Below are positions 33,326 to 45,804 of a stretch of DNA of 64,000 nucleotides, one piece after another. The notes beneath the pieces are model-generated. The model was not told the origin of the DNA. It did not search any database and was given only the letters and a program-made list of their open reading frames with translations. This stretch comes from Thiotrichaceae bacterium. Lineage in GTDB: Bacteria > Pseudomonadota > Gammaproteobacteria > Beggiatoales > Beggiatoaceae. Positions within the stretch are counted from its first letter, which is position 1; every line of letters begins with the position of its first letter. The stretch is taken from NCBI GenBank assembly GCA_011391085.1, contig JAABRD010000008.1, positions 1 through 64,000 of the forward strand. Direction: 5' to 3'. The position numbers and the translations under genes are program-made.

Positions 33326-36300
33326 ATGAAACATTACATACCTCACAGTCTATGGTGTCTGCTTCTCCTGGCGTCCTCCCTGGCCGCCGCAGACCTCCAA
33401 ATCACTCCTACCGTGGCAGTGGTCGAGACGGGTAAAACACTGACCCTCTCCATGACTGGCACCGACCGCCCTGTGACCTGGGTCGCCTCGAAAGGTCAGG
33501 TACAAAGTGCCGTGGGCTATCAAGCCACCTATACTGCCCCACCGGAAGCTGGGATAGATTCGGTCATCGTCAAAGATGACCTTGGCAATCATGGCGTCCG
33601 CAAAATCATTGTGGTTCGCGCAGGTACCTTCGTACCTGAAAATGCCAATTGGAAGGTGTTTGCTAACCGTCGCACGATTGCTGGACTCCTCTTGTCGGAG
33701 GATAAGGAAACGTTGTGGGTTGCTACCACCGGTGGCTTGGAACAACGGGATACTAAGACAAACCGAGTCATTCGGTTTTACACGACCCAAGATGGCTTAC
33801 CTCATAACTTTGTCCAACCGCTACTGTCCGATAACAAGGGAGGACTGTGGGTTGGCACTCAAGGCGGGTTGGTCCATCTGCTGGCCACCGGCAAGCTGGA
33901 AAAAATTAACCTGGAATGGAACCAGAAATTCATCGTGTCTCTCACTGACGATGGCAAAGAGGGTATTTGGGTGGCTATTCGTGAAGGTGGATTGGTTCAC
34001 TTACATGGCGACTTGACCTGGGAACAATTTACCACGGACAATTCCCAGTTACCAGATAACTCCACTTACTTTCCGGTGCTAGATGGTATCGGTGGACTAT
34101 GGGTGGGCACTCGGCAGGGCTTGGCACATTTATTGGCAGATAGTACTTGGCAAGTGTTTAATACCAGCAATTCTCCTTTGCCTGACAACTGGGTGGTCCG
34201 TTTAGTTTCCGACGGTAATCAGGGCCTGTGGTTAGGAACGGGAGAAACTTTTGGGATGAGTGGTGATAATGGAGGAGTTGCCCATTTTAAGGCTGACGGC
34301 AGTTGGGAAGTGTTTAACACGTCCAATTCCAAGTTGCCTGGTGACATCGTTTGGTCAGCGACTTCTGACCTCAATGGAGGGATGTGGGTAGGCACCACGG
34401 ACATGTTTGGGGTGAGTGGCGGACTGGCACATTTTCATAGTGATGGTACAGTGGAAGCATTTACCCCAGACAGTTCTCAACTACCCAATCCTAGAGTGTC
34501 TTCCCTGTATACGGATAATCGTGAAGGCGTTTGGGTAGGCACCGGCGGAAGTGGTTTGGCCTACCTTCATACGGACGGCACCTGGGATCTGCTGAATACT
34601 CATGAACAAAGTATTCCAGACAACATGATACTGGCCATCGACTCAGATGGTCAGGATGGAATTTGGGTCGGTGTCGCGGATGTGGCTTCTGGTGGTGGTT
34701 TAGCACACCTGGATGCCTATGGTTTATGGCAATTTTTTTTACTAGAGGAACCCAATGCCCTTGGGATACCTCTGAATAATACCGTGTGGTCTGTCGCCGC
34801 CGATGGTCAAGGAGGAGTATGGGCGGGAATCGGAGGAATGTTAGGAGGAGGAGGCTTAACACATTTTCATGCTGATGGCAGTAGAGAGGTTTTCACCACC
34901 GGCAACTCGCAACTTCCTGCTGACATTATTCGTATCCTACTTTCCGATGGTCAAGGTGGCGTTTGGCTAAGTGCTGGAGAGGTGGCAACAGGTAATGGTT
35001 TAGCCCATCTGCTGGCCGATGGCAGTTGGGAAATTTTTAATACCACCAATTCCAAATTGCCAGATGACCGAGTGTCAGGCTTGGACAACGACGGTAGAGG
35101 AGGTGTTTGGATAGGCACCATGGGCGGTTTAGCCCATCTTCTGGTGAATGGCAATTGGGAAGTATTTACCACCAGCAATTCGCAACTACCAGAAGACTCC
35201 CTTGTTTCTCTAGCCTCGGATAATCATGGTGGTGTGTGGGTCGGCACGTTAGAACATGGTGTTGCCCATTTGCAAGGAGATAATACGTGGCAAGTTTTTC
35301 ATAAGGATAACTCCAAGATGCCCAATAATGGGATAGTTAAAGCGTTGCTGGCAGATGACCGAGACGGGGTCTGGGTGGGGACGTTTGATGTTGAAACTCC
35401 GTTTGATGAAGTGGGTGGTCTAGTTCACCTGAATCCAGATGGTACAGGAGAAGTCTTTACCATCAGAAATTCTGGATTACCTGACAGTCGAATTGTTTCT
35501 CTTAAACGCGATAACAAAGAAGGCATCTGGGTAGGGACTGCCTTTGGTCTTGCTTACCTCACCCTGAGTAAGAAACCGTTTCTCTGCACCAACCTAGATG
35601 ACGCTACCTGTGACGCCCTTCTCAAAGGCAACCGGGCTGCTATCATCATTGCTGGTGGCGGTAACGAGGCTAACAATACCCTCTGGGACACGACCGAAAG
35701 CATTACTAACAGCATTTACCAAATGCTGTATGAAAGAGGATTTGAAAATAACGAGATTTATTATCTCTCCCCCAAACTGTCAGAGGACTTCAATGATGAC
35801 GGGGGAAATGACCGGGTGGTGGATGCACCGCAACCGGAAAATCCTTTGCAAGTAAGCGATGTGCAACAGGCCTTGGAATGGGCCAAGGGGCGAGGTAAAC
35901 TGGACCAACCACTGTATCTCTTTTTGGTGGACCACGGTGCGGAAGATTCAAATCAGAAACTTTACTTTAAATTGAGTAGTACGACACCGTTGGAAGCCGG
36001 CCAGCTTAAAGGGTTTCTGGACGAATATACCGCCGCTACCTCTTCACCTATGGTAATGGTGATAGACGCTTGTTGGTCTGGGGCCTTAATGGAGGAACTC
36101 TCACCCAGTGCTAACCGTGCTATTATCAGCAGTAGCGAAGGTTCAGGAAAAGCCTATTTCTACGCCCCGGAGAAGCAAGGTTTTAGTCGTTTTCTGGCCG
36201 AGAGTTTGGGAGAAGGAAAGAGTTTTGGGGAGGCTTTTGACCATGCCAAACGAGAACAACAGAACATTCTTCCCCGCGTGGCAGAGTCCTCTAAACTACC

Positions 36301-37117
36301 CGGCGAAATCGGTCAAGTGCCCCAATTCAATGATGGTGGCAATAGCGAATTTCGCACCCTGTTTGTCAACGGTAATTTCCCCCGTACCAACCCAGTGTCG
36401 ATAAAAGAACTGGTCTCCTCTGGCACCACCAGTTTAGCCGCCGGTCAAAAACATCTCTTCAAAGCCCAGGTGAATGTGACTCAAGGCTATGCGCAACATG
36501 TCTGGGCGGTGCTAAAACCACCGCGTGTCAATTTGGTGTTAGACAACAATGGTACGCCCATTTTAGACTTGCCCTTGTTGACTCTCTCGCCCACGGTGGA
36601 TGAGGGAATATGGGAAGCGAGTTGGCGAGATGCGGTTTATAATGGGGAGTATGAACTGACCTTCTATGCGGAGGATAATCAAGGGCATCGTGCCAGCAGT
36701 TCCCCTGTGACCGTGACCGTGACGGGTGGCACAGAATTACCAGCACAGGCGGAAGTGCAAGTGATGCTGACTCCGCAACAGGAGATTTACAAGGTGAAAG
36801 AACGCCTGACAATTCAGTTGACAGAAGGGTTAAGTTGGGGGTATGATTTGTATGTGATGGTAACTTTCCCAGACGGGTCGTTTGCCACCTTGACTGATAC
36901 CAATCAATTCCAACCGTCTAACCAGGCCAAAAAATGGATGGGGAAGAAGAGTCCCAATAGTCCACTTACCTTGATAGATATGGAGTTGGTGGAACCGCTG
37001 GGGTCATATTGTGTCTATGGGATTTTATCACCTGCCAAGGAGGACTTTTTAGCGGCAGAGACGAAAGCGTTGCAAGTGGAAGTGAAATGGTGTGCGGAGG
37101 TGGTGAAGAAAGAGTAG
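33326..37117 (+). CDS. exported propeller-caspase fusion protein
   Basis: 1263 residues. Signal peptide 1-22 (SLAAA). Ig-like domain (23-98). About 14 propeller blades (105-755) of the type 'LLSDNKGGLWVGTQGGLVHL', typical of two-component-regulator propellers. Caspase-like domain (about 768-985) with IIIAGGGNEANN, EIYYLSPKLSEDFNDDGGND, catalytic His870 in FLVDHGAED and Cys916 in VIDACWSGAL. An Ig-like module and C-terminal module (DLYVMVTFPDG, YCVYGILSPAKED) follow, shared with 19723 and 21518. The active dyad is intact, so this is a probable exported cysteine protease whose propeller binds a partner or substrate. The blade count suggests two stacked propellers. No membrane anchor beyond the signal peptide. 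Confidence 0.85.
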   Translation: MKHYIPHSLWCLLLLASSLAAADLQITPTVAVVETGKTLTLSMTGTDRPVTWVASKGQVQSAVGYQATYTAPPEAGIDSVIVKDDLGNHGVRKIIVVRAGTFVPENANWKVFANRRTIAGLLLSEDKETLWVATTGGLEQRDTKTNRVIRFYTTQDGLPHNFVQPLLSDNKGGLWVGTQGGLVHLLATGKLEKINLEWNQKFIVSLTDDGKEGIWVAIREGGLVHLHGDLTWEQFTTDNSQLPDNSTYFPVLDGIGGLWVGTRQGLAHLLADSTWQVFNTSNSPLPDNWVVRLVSDGNQGLWLGTGETFGMSGDNGGVAHFKADGSWEVFNTSNSKLPGDIVWSATSDLNGGMWVGTTDMFGVSGGLAHFHSDGTVEAFTPDSSQLPNPRVSSLYTDNREGVWVGTGGSGLAYLHTDGTWDLLNTHEQSIPDNMILAIDSDGQDGIWVGVADVASGGGLAHLDAYGLWQFFLLEEPNALGIPLNNTVWSVAADGQGGVWAGIGGMLGGGGLTHFHADGSREVFTTGNSQLPADIIRILLSDGQGGVWLSAGEVATGNGLAHLLADGSWEIFNTTNSKLPDDRVSGLDNDGRGGVWIGTMGGLAHLLVNGNWEVFTTSNSQLPEDSLVSLASDNHGGVWVGTLEHGVAHLQGDNTWQVFHKDNSKMPNNGIVKALLADDRDGVWVGTFDVETPFDEVGGLVHLNPDGTGEVFTIRNSGLPDSRIVSLKRDNKEGIWVGTAFGLAYLTLSKKPFLCTNLDDATCDALLKGNRAAIIIAGGGNEANNTLWDTTESITNSIYQMLYERGFENNEIYYLSPKLSEDFNDDGGNDRVVDAPQPENPLQVSDVQQALEWAKGRGKLDQPLYLFLVDHGAEDSNQKLYFKLSSTTPLEAGQLKGFLDEYTAATSSPMVMVIDACWSGALMEELSPSANRAIISSSEGSGKAYFYAPEKQGFSRFLAESLGEGKSFGEAFDHAKREQQNILPRVAESSKLPGEIGQVPQFNDGGNSEFRTLFVNGNFPRTNPVSIKELVSSGTTSLAAGQKHLFKAQVNVTQGYAQHVWAVLKPPRVNLVLDNNGTPILDLPLLTLSPTVDEGIWEASWRDAVYNGEYELTFYAEDNQGHRASSSPVTVTVTGGTELPAQAEVQVMLTPQQEIYKVKERLTIQLTEGLSWGYDLYVMVTFPDGSFATLTDTNQFQPSNQAKKWMGKKSPNSPLTLIDMELVEPLGSYCVYGILSPAKEDFLAAETKALQVEVKWCAEVVKKE

Positions 37118-38171: not shown

Positions 38172-38267
38172 GGTAGTGATGCAATATAGGTGATAGAAAT
38201 TAAAGGCACTGGCGGTCTCTCTACGGACTGCCAGTGCCTTGCCCATCACCCACATTGCATCACTACC
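38172..38267. repeat. family A palindrome, 96 bp
   Basis: GGTAGTGATGCAATATAGG ... CCCACATTGCATCACTACC with an inner 'aaggcactggcgg/ggactgccagtgcctt' palindrome. It ends 41 bases before the sensor-MFS gene. Confidence 0.85.
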
Positions 38268-38308: not shown

Positions 38309-41300
38309 ATGAAGAGAATCTCAAATAATTTATTTTTCCTAACCACGGTAATAGCATGTGGGATTCTGTACCTCTATTTAAACAGCGAACTTTTCTTTGA
38401 AAATGTGTTTGAACGAAAATTCACGCTGAACTATCCCGTTTATGCCGTTCAAGATTCAGATGGCAATCGCTATGTGATTGACAACTCGTTTCGCCGCATT
38501 TCCAAAATCAATAAAGAAGAAGAAATGGTTTATCGCATTCATGGCGGTAGCCGTGCAGAAACACATTTTTTCTATGCGAATGACATAGAAGTAGATAATG
38601 ATGGCTACTTATATGTCCTCAATTACGTTGCGGATCAGAAAGGCTTTTATCTGAATCGCGAGGAAATTTTGCGCTTTTCTCCAACAGGAGAGTATGACGG
38701 CAGAGTTTATCATAAAATGTTTGGCCAAGAGGATAAAAAAGCCCAGTTAATTCAACGTGGCGAAGTTTTCTCTTTAGAGGTCCAGGATAACCTCCTTTCC
38801 TGGTTCACTCTCACAGGTGACGGCATTACCAAATATAGTTATGATATTAAACGTAATGAACTACAAGAAGGGAATAATTATCCGTTAGCAGAAGCGAATA
38901 TTGTCGTTAGTGACATTATCCAACTCTCCACAGATAGCTTTGTGTACTCAAGCAAAGATGGTTTAATTACACGAGTTCTACCAAACGGAAGCACTCATAT
39001 TCTCTTTTCTGCTGACAAAGCGCAAGCGAAAAATGGCAGTTTTATCGTTCCCTGGGAAATTGGGGCGGATGCGTCCGAAAATATTTATTTTGTTGATTTA
39101 GAAGGAAAAAATATTCGTTCTATCCTCTCTCCCGCTAACACTCGAATCTTGCTGGATCAAGCCATGATTGAATTTCAACTGCAAATTCAGATGGAGGCGT
39201 TTAATTATTATCGTTTGAGCGTTAATGCGGATGGCACCCTCGTGACTTGTAACGATAAAGCGGTGGTCACACGAACGCCTAATGGTACGATTCATTATTT
39301 CACCAGTGCCAATCTGCCACTGGTCTGGCAATTAAAAGTGTTCACGTTTTGGGGAATTTGTCTCATTTTGGGATTTCTCATTATTTGGAAATTCCGTCTT
39401 ATCTATGTCAGTGTCTTAAAAAGGAAAGTACCCAACCTTCTGACATTATCCATCGGTATCACGGTCATTGTGGCTACCGTCGCTTTATTATCTTCTTATT
39501 ATTTCATTACCAACTTTTCCCAAAGATACCAAAATGTGGTGTTTGAAAAACTCTCTCAAATTATTCAACTGGTACCAAAAGTATTAGACGGAAATCGAAT
39601 TGAGAAGATCGCAAAACAAAGTGATTTTAATAATGCAGATTATAAATATGTATATAACACGTTATATAATGCCTTAAACCGAAATCAAGATGATTGGAAC
39701 GATGGCTATTATTTCGCCTTGTATCGGGTCATGAATGAACGTCTCTATGGGATGATGTATATAGATGGACGTATTAACATGTATTATCCATTCGATTGGC
39801 TAGGTGATGGTGGAGTGTATGACCAAGCGTTAGCCGGTCACATCGCGACTGAAGCTGTCACAGATATTACCGGTGACTGGATTTATGGTGTAGGCCCGGT
39901 GACGAATAGCGCCGGTAAAGTGGTCGCGATTCTTGAAATTGGTACGGATTTATATTACCTCCGACTGGAAAATCAAAGATTGATTAAAGAATTGGTGTTA
40001 AATTTACTCATTGTACTGATCATCTTTGTGTTAGTGTTGGTGGAGATACTGTATGTCGGTGAGTTACATAAAAAGAAACATCTTCAGGAAAAACATCAAA
40101 AAAAATTTGAGGAACAGCAACCTTTTTCGGAAATCATGTTGATTAGACCTCTGAGTTTCTTATATTTCACCTCGGTTTCGGTGTCGATTACGTTCGTTCC
40201 ACTGTTAATGAAACAATTTTATGAACCGATTCCCGGACTGTCACAAGAAATGGTGCTGGCGATGCCACTGTCGTTAGAAATGTTTGGGTTCGGCGTTGGC
40301 ACGACAATTGCCGGCGGAGTGGCCAGTCGTATTGGCTGGAAATGGGCTTTCTATTTAGGACTCTTTGGAACAGCGATAGGCTTATTGTTATCGGGTCTGG
40401 CCGATAGCATGTTAAGTTTCAACATTGCACGTAGCATGACAGGAATGAGTAGTGGATTCACATTAATTGCGATGCGTTCTTTCATTAATCAAGAATCACG
40501 AACGATAGAGAGAAGTCAGGGATTTAGCCAATTTTATTCCGGCATGACCGCAGGTATTTGTGCAGGCGCCGTATTTGGGGGAACATTAGCCAACCATATT
40601 AGTTTTTCCAATATATTTTTTATTGCCCTGAGTCCCCTCTTACTGACGGTGATTTTCCAACTTTTTTATTTAAAAAATCCATCTTTTTCCCAAAAAGCCG
40701 CGAAAATACCAAAAAGAGAATCGATTAGCCTGTTAGAGTCACTCAAAATATTTATCATGAGTGGCAAAAATTTAGTCTTTTTGACCATGATTGTCTTTCC
40801 AACGTATATTGCTGGCACCTTCGCCGGGTATTACTTCCCACTGTTTGCCGAAAGCCAAGGATTGTCAACGGCCGGCACAGGCTTGTTTATTATTTCTGGA
40901 GGACTGTTGGTCATCTATCTGGGCCCCATTTTAAGTAATTATTTGGAACGTCAATGGGGAACCTACAAAAGCATGATTTTCGGCTCCATCTTATGGGGAA
41001 TTTCGCTGATTGTGTTTGCACTCACGGGCAATTTAATCGGCGCCATCGTGACTTTGGTATTAATGGGAATTACCGAAGGCTTTTGCGTGACCGCACAGAA
41101 TGAATTTTTCTTGAAACTTCCCCCGGTGGCACAACTTGGAGAAGACAGGGCCGTCAGTTACTTCGAATTTTTCAGTAGCGTCGCCGAAACAATAGGCCCC
41201 CTGACGTTTGCCATGGTATTCATATCAGGTACCATGGGATTCATGTTCCTTGGGCTTGGAATTATCATTTTGACTTTGCTATTTATACTGTTTATGAATT

Positions 41301-41353
41301 TAACTCAAAATTCGATTTTAGAGGAATCAGTCAGAAGTACGGAAGAAATTTGA
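38309..41353 (+). CDS. sensor-MFS fusion membrane protein
   Basis: 1014 residues from ATG 38309; the open frame upstream runs into a repeat and is ignored. Order: membrane segment (about 7-25), extracytoplasmic NHL/SMP-30-like beta domain (about 40-335; VYAVQDSDGNRYVIDNSFRR, DIEVDNDGYLYVLNY), membrane segments (about 341-362 and 376-401), and a Cache-like extracytoplasmic domain (about 403-552; DGYYFALYRVMNERLYGMMY, VGPVTNSAGKVVAILEIGTD). Then a membrane segment (562-583), a charged linker, and a complete 12-segment MFS transporter (about 610-1005) with the usual GxxxDRxGR-like loop replaced by VASRIGWKW. Two sensor modules joined to a transporter is unusual; it may be a ligand-gated transporter or a transporter-like sensor. 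Confidence 0.75.
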   Translation: MKRISNNLFFLTTVIACGILYLYLNSELFFENVFERKFTLNYPVYAVQDSDGNRYVIDNSFRRISKINKEEEMVYRIHGGSRAETHFFYANDIEVDNDGYLYVLNYVADQKGFYLNREEILRFSPTGEYDGRVYHKMFGQEDKKAQLIQRGEVFSLEVQDNLLSWFTLTGDGITKYSYDIKRNELQEGNNYPLAEANIVVSDIIQLSTDSFVYSSKDGLITRVLPNGSTHILFSADKAQAKNGSFIVPWEIGADASENIYFVDLEGKNIRSILSPANTRILLDQAMIEFQLQIQMEAFNYYRLSVNADGTLVTCNDKAVVTRTPNGTIHYFTSANLPLVWQLKVFTFWGICLILGFLIIWKFRLIYVSVLKRKVPNLLTLSIGITVIVATVALLSSYYFITNFSQRYQNVVFEKLSQIIQLVPKVLDGNRIEKIAKQSDFNNADYKYVYNTLYNALNRNQDDWNDGYYFALYRVMNERLYGMMYIDGRINMYYPFDWLGDGGVYDQALAGHIATEAVTDITGDWIYGVGPVTNSAGKVVAILEIGTDLYYLRLENQRLIKELVLNLLIVLIIFVLVLVEILYVGELHKKKHLQEKHQKKFEEQQPFSEIMLIRPLSFLYFTSVSVSITFVPLLMKQFYEPIPGLSQEMVLAMPLSLEMFGFGVGTTIAGGVASRIGWKWAFYLGLFGTAIGLLLSGLADSMLSFNIARSMTGMSSGFTLIAMRSFINQESRTIERSQGFSQFYSGMTAGICAGAVFGGTLANHISFSNIFFIALSPLLLTVIFQLFYLKNPSFSQKAAKIPKRESISLLESLKIFIMSGKNLVFLTMIVFPTYIAGTFAGYYFPLFAESQGLSTAGTGLFIISGGLLVIYLGPILSNYLERQWGTYKSMIFGSILWGISLIVFALTGNLIGAIVTLVLMGITEGFCVTAQNEFFLKLPPVAQLGEDRAVSYFEFFSSVAETIGPLTFAMVFISGTMGFMFLGLGIIILTLLFILFMNLTQNSILEESVRSTEEI

Positions 41354-43866: not shown

Positions 43867-45804
43867 CTATGCTTCGGATTCCTGGTTATGAGTACCACGC
43901 TTTGGATTCCTGGGTATAGAGGTGGGCGTGGAGGTGGCCGGTGAATCCAACTTGGCTTCCTCTTTGTCCTTTTTTAGTAGCAGGTGAAAGAAGAAGAAAA
44001 TTGCCGCAATGATCAAAAAATTGAAAACCGAATCACTTTTGGAAGGATTCAACGAATTCGATTTCGCCTTGGTTTGCGGCTTCAAAACCTCCGCCGAAGG
44101 TAACGTTGGATCCAGTTTTTCACCACTACCCAACGCCTTATTCAGTTTCAGAATCACAGGGTCTGATAACGGCTGTGAATAAGCTGAGATAACGGTGGCA
44201 GGGCCTCGATTGCCCACCACGTCACTAACTGGTAAAGGACCCGCCAAAACCATTTGGGTGCTAATCGTTTCCACAATGTCTGGTTGACCATCGTAGGAAT
44301 TGGCAGGGATTCGGGCCAACCGAAAGAAGGGGAAACGAATCAGATTATTGCCTTCTTGCCATTCTCTCAAAGACAAGAGTTTAAACCGACCCGTGGACAT
44401 AATGCCGGCCAACTGTTCATGATGCAAGGGCACCATGAGGAGAATCCCATCAAGGTGCTGTTTTTGAAGAGACTCGATTTGATCATTCAAGTTATCTTCG
44501 TAACTAAGAGTCACTTGGTCTTGAAGTCCTAACGACGTGAGTATCATTTTGGCACTGCGAGTTGAAATGCCACTTTTGCCACCATTGACCCCCAATTTTT
44601 GGATGTCCTTTAAAGCGGTAATTTGACCATCACGGGAAATGAGGAGGTGGGCCATTGCAGAACCCACTACCCCAACTGCTTCCATCAACCCTTCGGGGAC
44701 GGGTAACATATCTCTGGTGATTCTGAAAAAAGCTTCTGCATTCACAATCGCCAGCCGAGATTGACCTTTGATGAGAGATTGAATGGGGTCCGACACCTGA
44801 ATCGTTTTGACCTGGCGTCCTGGAAACGTCTTGCGTACCGCCCGGAGGGCTTTACTTAAACCACCACTGGGTTCATCTAACAATCCTGTAGCCATGATGA
44901 GTTCTTCCTTCTTGAGGAGACTTTTATCACGGGTACTTATTAAATTGTGTTGAATCAAGAAATTTTGGGCCACGGTCTGATAATCTTGCCCTTCTAATTC
45001 GACTTCGCGATTCATTTGGCGCATACTTTTGGTGTCAATGGTATCCGCGAGTCGTTGGAGGACCATGCGCAGTTTAGGAAAACGGTCCAAAGTGTCATCT
45101 CGGACCAGCGGCGAAGGTTCATAGACCGGGAAAAATTGTAAATCGTCTTGGAGGACCGTTAATCCAAAATCTTCAATACGTCCATCGGTAGAAAAGCCTT
45201 CGGCAACATCTACTTTGTTGTCTAACAAGGCTTGATAGATGGTAGAAACATCACTGTTAACCACGGTGGCAACGATATGATTGAGTCCATAGCGGCGTTG
45301 TAATGCGGCTAGACCATCTAACGGGCGTTCAATAAACTCCGGTTCTGCGGCCAACCGTACCGTGGGTTGAATTTTGAGGAGGTCGCTGATTTTCTTGATC
45401 CTCAAATTAGAAGCCAGGTCGCGTCGCATCAGCAACACATAGTTGTTAGCAAATCCAAGCCGGTCTAGCCATTCTAGTCCCAACGGTTTGAAGAGTTTTT
45501 TGACTTCCTCAAACGCCTTGTCACCATCATTGATGGGAGGTTGTCCTAACATGATGAGACCTGTACCATTGTATTCTACATACATGTCCAAGTCCCCAGT
45601 TTTGACCGCCTCCAGATTGGAAAAGGTGTCACCATACGGAATGGAACGCTTGACGGGAATTTGGGATTGTTCTGCCAATTGGGCAATCATTTCCGCCAAA
45701 ATGAGTTGTTCGGTAAATTCTTTAGAACCAATGTGGAGGGGGTCCAGTTTGGTGCAACTGCCCAGGAACAGTAAGATAGTAAGGGAGATGAGGATTTTTT
45801 TCAT
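43867..45804 (-). CDS. two-domain substrate-binding lipoprotein (OpuAC-like plus TAXI-like)
   Basis: 645 residues; GAGG ribosome site. A lipoprotein signal (LLFLGSCTK, Cys17) precedes an OpuAC/glycine-betaine-type binding domain (about 20-290; LHIGSKEFTEQLILAEMIAQ, GDLDMYVEYNGTGLIML, VAEGFSTDGRIEDFGLTVLQ). A second binding domain follows (about 300-575; VKTIQVSDPIQSLIKGQSRL, GINGGKSGISTRSA-like) that looks like the TAXI group of TRAP-transporter receptors. A Ser/Lys-rich linker and one C-terminal membrane segment (about 600-618) close the protein. It is co-directional with, and 15 bases after, a BCCT transporter gene, with no ABC permease or ATPase nearby. It may feed or regulate the BCCT carrier. 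Confidence 0.75.
   Translation of the reverse strand: MKKILISLTILLFLGSCTKLDPLHIGSKEFTEQLILAEMIAQLAEQSQIPVKRSIPYGDTFSNLEAVKTGDLDMYVEYNGTGLIMLGQPPINDGDKAFEEVKKLFKPLGLEWLDRLGFANNYVLLMRRDLASNLRIKKISDLLKIQPTVRLAAEPEFIERPLDGLAALQRRYGLNHIVATVVNSDVSTIYQALLDNKVDVAEGFSTDGRIEDFGLTVLQDDLQFFPVYEPSPLVRDDTLDRFPKLRMVLQRLADTIDTKSMRQMNREVELEGQDYQTVAQNFLIQHNLISTRDKSLLKKEELIMATGLLDEPSGGLSKALRAVRKTFPGRQVKTIQVSDPIQSLIKGQSRLAIVNAEAFFRITRDMLPVPEGLMEAVGVVGSAMAHLLISRDGQITALKDIQKLGVNGGKSGISTRSAKMILTSLGLQDQVTLSYEDNLNDQIESLQKQHLDGILLMVPLHHEQLAGIMSTGRFKLLSLREWQEGNNLIRFPFFRLARIPANSYDGQPDIVETISTQMVLAGPLPVSDVVGNRGPATVISAYSQPLSDPVILKLNKALGSGEKLDPTLPSAEVLKPQTKAKSNSLNPSKSDSVFNFLIIAAIFFFFHLLLKKDKEEAKLDSPATSTPTSIPRNPKRGTHNQESEA

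Follow-up and report, generated by a model that had tools for sequence, protein, structure and literature searches.

Transporter-signalling fusions are already known. The SLC5/STAC histidine kinases, among them CbrA, CrbS, and RpuS, are reported to join a transporter fold with sensory and signalling parts (PMC9100948). In these a kinase domain is joined to an SLC5 symporter domain, whereas the protein analysed here carries an MFS domain and no kinase was found in it. The protein is encoded in a 64,000-nucleotide stretch of DNA, to which as a whole we refer as the window. PknD-type receptors resemble the predicted arrangement of the window protein in that a membrane helix tethers an NHL propeller on the outside; their output is a protein kinase instead of a carrier. 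In bacteria, sensors that combine Cache and HAMP domains have kinases, cyclases, phosphatases, or chemotaxis proteins as their outputs. Searches of an open-access library returned no description of a fusion in which a carrier is apparently the output of a propeller together with Cache-like sensors.

A propeller-sensor-MFS fusion in one reading frame

An uninterrupted ORF runs from an ATG at 38309 to a stop codon ending at 41353 and encodes 1014 residues (table 1). The other candidate start is a GTG upstream at 38234; the ATG is preferred because the ORF of an orthologue (L019) begins at the same place, and no clear Shine-Dalgarno sequence was seen at this ATG. The order along the protein is a membrane helix, an NHL-type beta-propeller, two helices, a Cache-like sensor, a further helix, and an MFS carrier, the two sensor-type modules being predicted as set out below.

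Table 1. Features of the fusion gene and its product in the window
Feature	Residues	Positions	Strand	Basis
Whole ORF, propeller-sensor-MFS fusion	1014 aa	38309..41353	+	open frame; orthologue alignments
Transmembrane helix 1	8-26	38330..38386	+	hydropathy
NHL-type beta-propeller, predicted periplasmic	36-340	38414..39328	+	profile vs PDB
Transmembrane helix 2	342-360	39332..39388	+	hydropathy
Short basic loop, predicted cytoplasmic (5 K/R, 0 D/E)	361-376	39389..39436	+	hydropathy, charge
Transmembrane helix 3	377-395	39437..39493	+	hydropathy
Cache/PDC-like sensor, predicted periplasmic	401-556	39509..39976	+	hydropathy, profile vs PDB, conservation
Transmembrane helix 4, joins sensor to MFS	563-581	39995..40051	+	hydropathy; hhalign profile comparison
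Glu in sensor-exit helix	579	40043..40045	+	alignment of sensor-MFS proteins
Linker, position of HAMP in relatives	582-608	40052..40132	+	Pfam, hydropathy, alignment
MFS domain	609-992	40133..41284	+	Pfam MFS_1; tree

Two Thiomargarita MAGs (L018 and L019; 71% and 75% identity) carry the full length in a single frame. This pair was found by a short-peptide-pattern scan of genome contigs, which picks up close relatives only, and L018 is apparently the same contig as C99 of genome G020. A more distant homologue, WRS28984.1 (L060; 1005 aa, annotated "MFS transporter"), is encoded on a plasmid of Oscillospiraceae bacterium MB08-C2-2, a member of the Bacillota from insect faeces, and matches residues 27-974 of the window protein at 23% identity (E 5e-47); an alignment of the two, at 24% identity, takes in the propeller, the sensor, the helices, the MFS domain, and Glu579. 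By this alignment it is like the window protein in its helix-propeller-two helices-sensor-helix-MFS order, whereas it differs in keeping the motif A Asp, in belonging to another phylum, and in its neighbours. Of 72,556 plasmid records searched at the protein level, 24 had a match, and WRS28984.1 was the one that covered at least 80% of the query; the propeller type was thus seen in 1 of the 24 matching plasmid records, and genome searches were confined to the phylum of the window. Phages gave no match to the window protein. Since the Bacillota homologue aligns across all of these modules, two phyla share this architecture. The first-pass annotation had named as its refutation a frameshift joining two genes that relatives would carry as separate reading frames, and had suggested looking for the same fusion elsewhere. 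The fusion is present in the two Thiomargarita MAGs and the one Bacillota plasmid, and all three near-full-length matches are fused; a frameshift or assembly artefact is ruled out by these single frames, and the fusion is real.

Propeller, sensor region, and topology

Pfam found no NHL repeat in the window protein. When a four-sequence profile of residues 36-342 was compared with the PDB, it matched designed "Pizza" propellers at 2.1e-12, the NHL propeller of Drosophila Thin at 1.4e-9 (2.7e-6 with the three-sequence propeller profile), and 1rwi, the NHL propeller of bacterial PknD, at 1.7e-3. That residues 36-340 form an NHL-type propeller is well supported by these profile matches. Strands appear here in AlphaFold models of the full length and of the propeller part; the latter model (pLDDT 46.3) has about six strand groups, and a Foldseek search returned mainly propellers among the matches listed (50 of 1338) at TM-scores of about 0.2; these matches count as supporting only, because the AlphaFold models are of low confidence, and a blade number of about six, taken from the strand pattern, is a guess. 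The N-terminal profile matched 5 of the 369 genomes of the class; the four matches besides that in the window's own genome cover only 67-85 positions, are confined to the start of the propeller, and were set aside as other NHL repeats.

Hydropathy analysis places four strong helices around two large polar regions (residues 27-341 and 396-562). The loop between helices 2 and 3 is basic (table 1), and the stretch 582-614 has 7 K/R and 5 D/E; this charge pattern, with basic loops on the predicted inside, is consistent with periplasmic polar regions and an MFS domain that begins from the cytoplasm. No HAMP was matched by Pfam in the window protein, where the linker has about 27 residues. A first-pass claim that membrane helices frame both domains is borne out by hydropathy, and the structure prediction suggested alongside it gave poor models of low confidence, with a mean pLDDT of 36.8 for the full length and 46.3 for the propeller part.

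For the second polar region we infer, weakly, a Cache/PDC fold. No Pfam Cache model rose above its cut-off, the nearest being sCache_3_3, matched by a single member out of three at E 0.34 and 0.62, and the sensor piece of the Bacillota homologue matched dCache_3 below the cut-off (E 0.17). A three-sequence sensor profile compared with solved structures returned no sensor chain among four rows. With the Bacillota sequence added, five of the nine PDB rows were sensor-kinase chains (E 0.73-0.88, stretch 101-149), three named citA and two "Histidine kinase", all of which were outscored by three unrelated rows. When the four-sequence profile was compared by hhalign with sensor regions from nine relatives, it gave a probability of 88% (E 2.9e-6), in a match of about 45 columns that spans the last sensor strand and the exit helix only; a three-sequence profile gave 65% (E 6.2e-5). 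Conservation among the three orthologues is high in this region: 121 of its 156 columns are invariant, which is level with the C-terminal MFS half (140 of 180), the corresponding counts being 186 of 305 in the propeller and 125 of 182 in the first MFS half. The sensor profile, used at E 0.05 against 95 related genomes, matched in two, namely the window protein itself and the orthologue in G020, and therefore no free-standing sensor of this type was found that could bridge this region to known Cache families. PF17202 matched in 4 of 39 relatives' genomes, and the window's own genome had no match; three of the matching proteins were read and set aside.

The carrier, its family, and the neighbouring genes

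Pfam MFS_1 (cut-off 33.4 bits) scores 88.7 bits over residues 616-964 and is the sole domain above its cut-off; the two Thiomargarita orthologues score 94.7 and 91.1 bits. An MFS domain is expected to have 12 helices, and hydropathy at a threshold of 1.25 recovers 9 here. A motif A with Asp is a hallmark of the MFS, and this motif is variable among members of the superfamily. The window protein and its two orthologues have Ser in place of the Asp and keep the Gly and Arg, and motif A also deviates in several other sensor-MFS rows. Because motif A varies in the superfamily and the MFS_1 profile passes, the carrier is still assigned to the MFS; the replacement of the Asp could mean that this is a carrier perhaps without any transport. 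Neither Pfam nor NCBIfam found a kinase or other known output domain in the window protein. The first-pass picture of two sensor-type modules with helices preceding an MFS carrier is supported, and both domain scans agree with its lack of a kinase output. Its suggestion of an exporter fared less well, as there is only general similarity to drug-efflux MFS models, all below cut-off.

The first-pass annotation had also described large sensor domains as rare among known MFS proteins. The domains of one relative (L004), the searches, and the tree place the window protein not as an isolated case but as a branch of a sensor-fused MFS family. MFS proteins bearing a sensor region at the corresponding position were found in 9 of 42 genomes of the same taxonomic family (E 1e-20) and in 8 of 398 genomes sampled across the phylum (E 1e-40). 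A class-wide search of 369 genomes at E 1e-30 gave 11 matches in 10 genomes, nine of them in open frames of at least 684 aa; the match in G265 has a stop inside it, that in G244 runs from position 188 only, and those in G088 (stop inside) and G249 comprise only the MFS part, in frames of 458 and 467 aa. Sensor-less kin may therefore exist. In L004 (from G028), sCache_3_2, HAMP, and MFS_1 all exceed their Pfam cut-offs in the order sensor-HAMP-MFS. This protein is like the window protein in having a sensor, a Glu-bearing exit helix, and an MFS domain of one clade; it differs in its HAMP above cut-off, in a binding-protein gene that overlaps the end of its own, and in having no propeller. HAMP falls below the cut-off in L005 and L028, and Pfam found no named sensor domain in the other scanned relatives (a scan made without L006, L007, and L043), whose 250-450 extra residues are called sensors because of their alignment and length; "two-sensor" is likewise a reading.

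In the MFS-domain tree, 19 sensor-fused rows fall on one side of a branch supported at 98/99 and the plain MFS rows, only eight in number and on long branches, fall on the other; within the former, L003 groups with the window branch at 95/91. Given so few and such long plain rows and the two MFS-only matches, a single origin of the sensor-fused proteins is likely, not proven, from these sequences. A Glu in the exit helix occurs in 16 of the 19 sensor-MFS rows including the window protein, is absent in L008, L016, and L043, and is also present in the Bacillota homologue. The tree and the neighbour counts that follow leave aside G155, G373, G265, G362, G244, G088, and G249.

A gene for a PF04392 periplasmic binding protein (E 0.001 or better) lies beside the MFS gene in all 15 sensor-MFS loci counted, or one gene away in the case of L035. 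These loci are C64 of the window's own genome, one each in G009, G010, G014, G018, G021, and G028, and eight from the 398-genome phylum sample; L003 (G024) was excluded since its gene runs to the contig end. The C64 locus (L041:3085-10187) encodes a second sensor-fused MFS protein of the own genome, 826 aa long, with its own PF04392 protein. Among four plasmid records viewed, those of Nitratidesulfovibrio vulgaris DP4 and Azospirillum brasilense have, immediately upstream of the MFS gene, a gene annotated as an ABC substrate-binding protein, the Bacillota plasmid with WRS28984.1 has none there and no PF04392 match at all, and one is unannotated there. On the N. vulgaris plasmid (L061:1207-5395) the binding-protein gene overlaps a 987-aa MFS gene, and an annotated CesT-type chaperone gene is close. 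At the propeller-type loci the picture is different: PF04392 is found on contigs C64 and C79 only of the window genome and not on the window contig C129, on C165 and C250 of G020 and not on the propeller-type contig C99, and no binding-protein gene was recognised by eye among the flanking ORFs of at least 150 aa in L019. The PF04392 neighbour in relatives, with none found at the four propeller-type loci (one of them read by eye), suggests that the propeller took over the role of the binding protein.

Other neighbours vary among the relatives. Genes for dCache adenylate cyclases are adjacent to the MFS gene in L042 and one gene away and convergent in L041, near L035 is a SpoIIE phosphatase gene whose HAMP and dCache_1 matches fall short of the cut-off, and an annotated cyclase gene lies near another relative. 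The MFS-PF04392 pair adjoins a VgrG-type gene in L033 and L034 and a ClpV/ClpB-type ATPase gene in L037 and L038, names read from Pfam domains that do not separate ClpV from ClpB; this hints at a link to type VI secretion. L045, L057, L058, and L059 each have a gene with an FGE-sulfatase domain upstream of the Cache-HAMP-MFS gene, with a gene for a 265-278 aa protein in between in three of these four. The nearby regulator that the first-pass annotation had proposed to look for in orthologues did not emerge, as no conserved regulator gene was seen beside the fusion gene. In the window itself, positions 33326-37117 encode a large protein that combines two-component-regulator propeller repeats with a Peptidase_C13 domain, of the caspase-like clan, and positions 43867-45804 encode a single chain in which an NMT1-like binding domain comes after an OpuAC binding domain, adjoined by a 520-aa ORF that is transporter-like by eye.

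Sensor gating and competing explanations

We propose, at a probability of about 0.5, that the fusion is an MFS carrier gated by periplasmic sensors. The propeller and the Cache-like region would both face the periplasm, ligand binding would shift the Glu579-bearing helix and thereby relay a signal to the MFS bundle, and the MFS domain would stand in place of a kinase, cyclase, or chemotaxis output domain. Relatives would use a HAMP in the linker and a separate PF04392 protein, whereas in the window branch no HAMP was found and the propeller may replace the PF04392 protein. This reading is favoured because the MFS domain is the sole recognised effector and because HAMP lies between sensor and MFS in relatives.

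The same HAMP bears on another scheme, in which the propeller and the Cache-like domain would act as a tethered binding protein, capturing the substrate itself for delivery to the carrier, with no gating. The PF04392 protein near the genes of relatives, absent from the propeller types searched, fits such a capture device; however, HAMP between sensor and MFS favours signalling, and MFS carriers are not known to require binding proteins, so that we regard capture alone as improbable. Somewhat better placed, if still rather unlikely, is a transceptor, whose MFS bundle would sense or relay with little or no transport and have its state read by a separate partner in the cytoplasm. Its main point is the motif A Asp, which is replaced in all three orthologues; further points for it are the cyclase genes (L041, L042, and the annotated one), the SpoIIE phosphatase gene (L035), the VgrG-type genes (L033 and L034), and the ClpV/ClpB-type ATPase genes (L037 and L038) near relatives. 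Yet no partner gene was seen among the scanned neighbours of the propeller-type loci, the Bacillota homologue retains the Asp, and the MFS halves are well conserved, and gating of the carrier by its sensors remains our preferred reading.

For the family as a whole we suggest, tentatively, that these proteins are widespread undescribed receptors with a periplasmic sensor (Cache, a doubled sensor, or a propeller plus Cache), a helix with a buried Glu, often a HAMP, a whole MFS domain as output, and usually a PF04392 protein, of which the window protein would be the self-contained, propeller-replaced form. In that form transport itself would be the directly ligand-switched response. Exchanging sensors could then show in what way the movement of an output domain depends on the HAMP or signal helix before it. 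A further prediction from the family is that an ABC-type binding protein and an MFS carrier work together, an unusual pairing if it holds. Sensor-fused carriers appear to be a little-noticed group of which this protein of a giant sulphur bacterium is a member, and if the sensor parts drive the carrier directly, transport could be switched without gene regulation.
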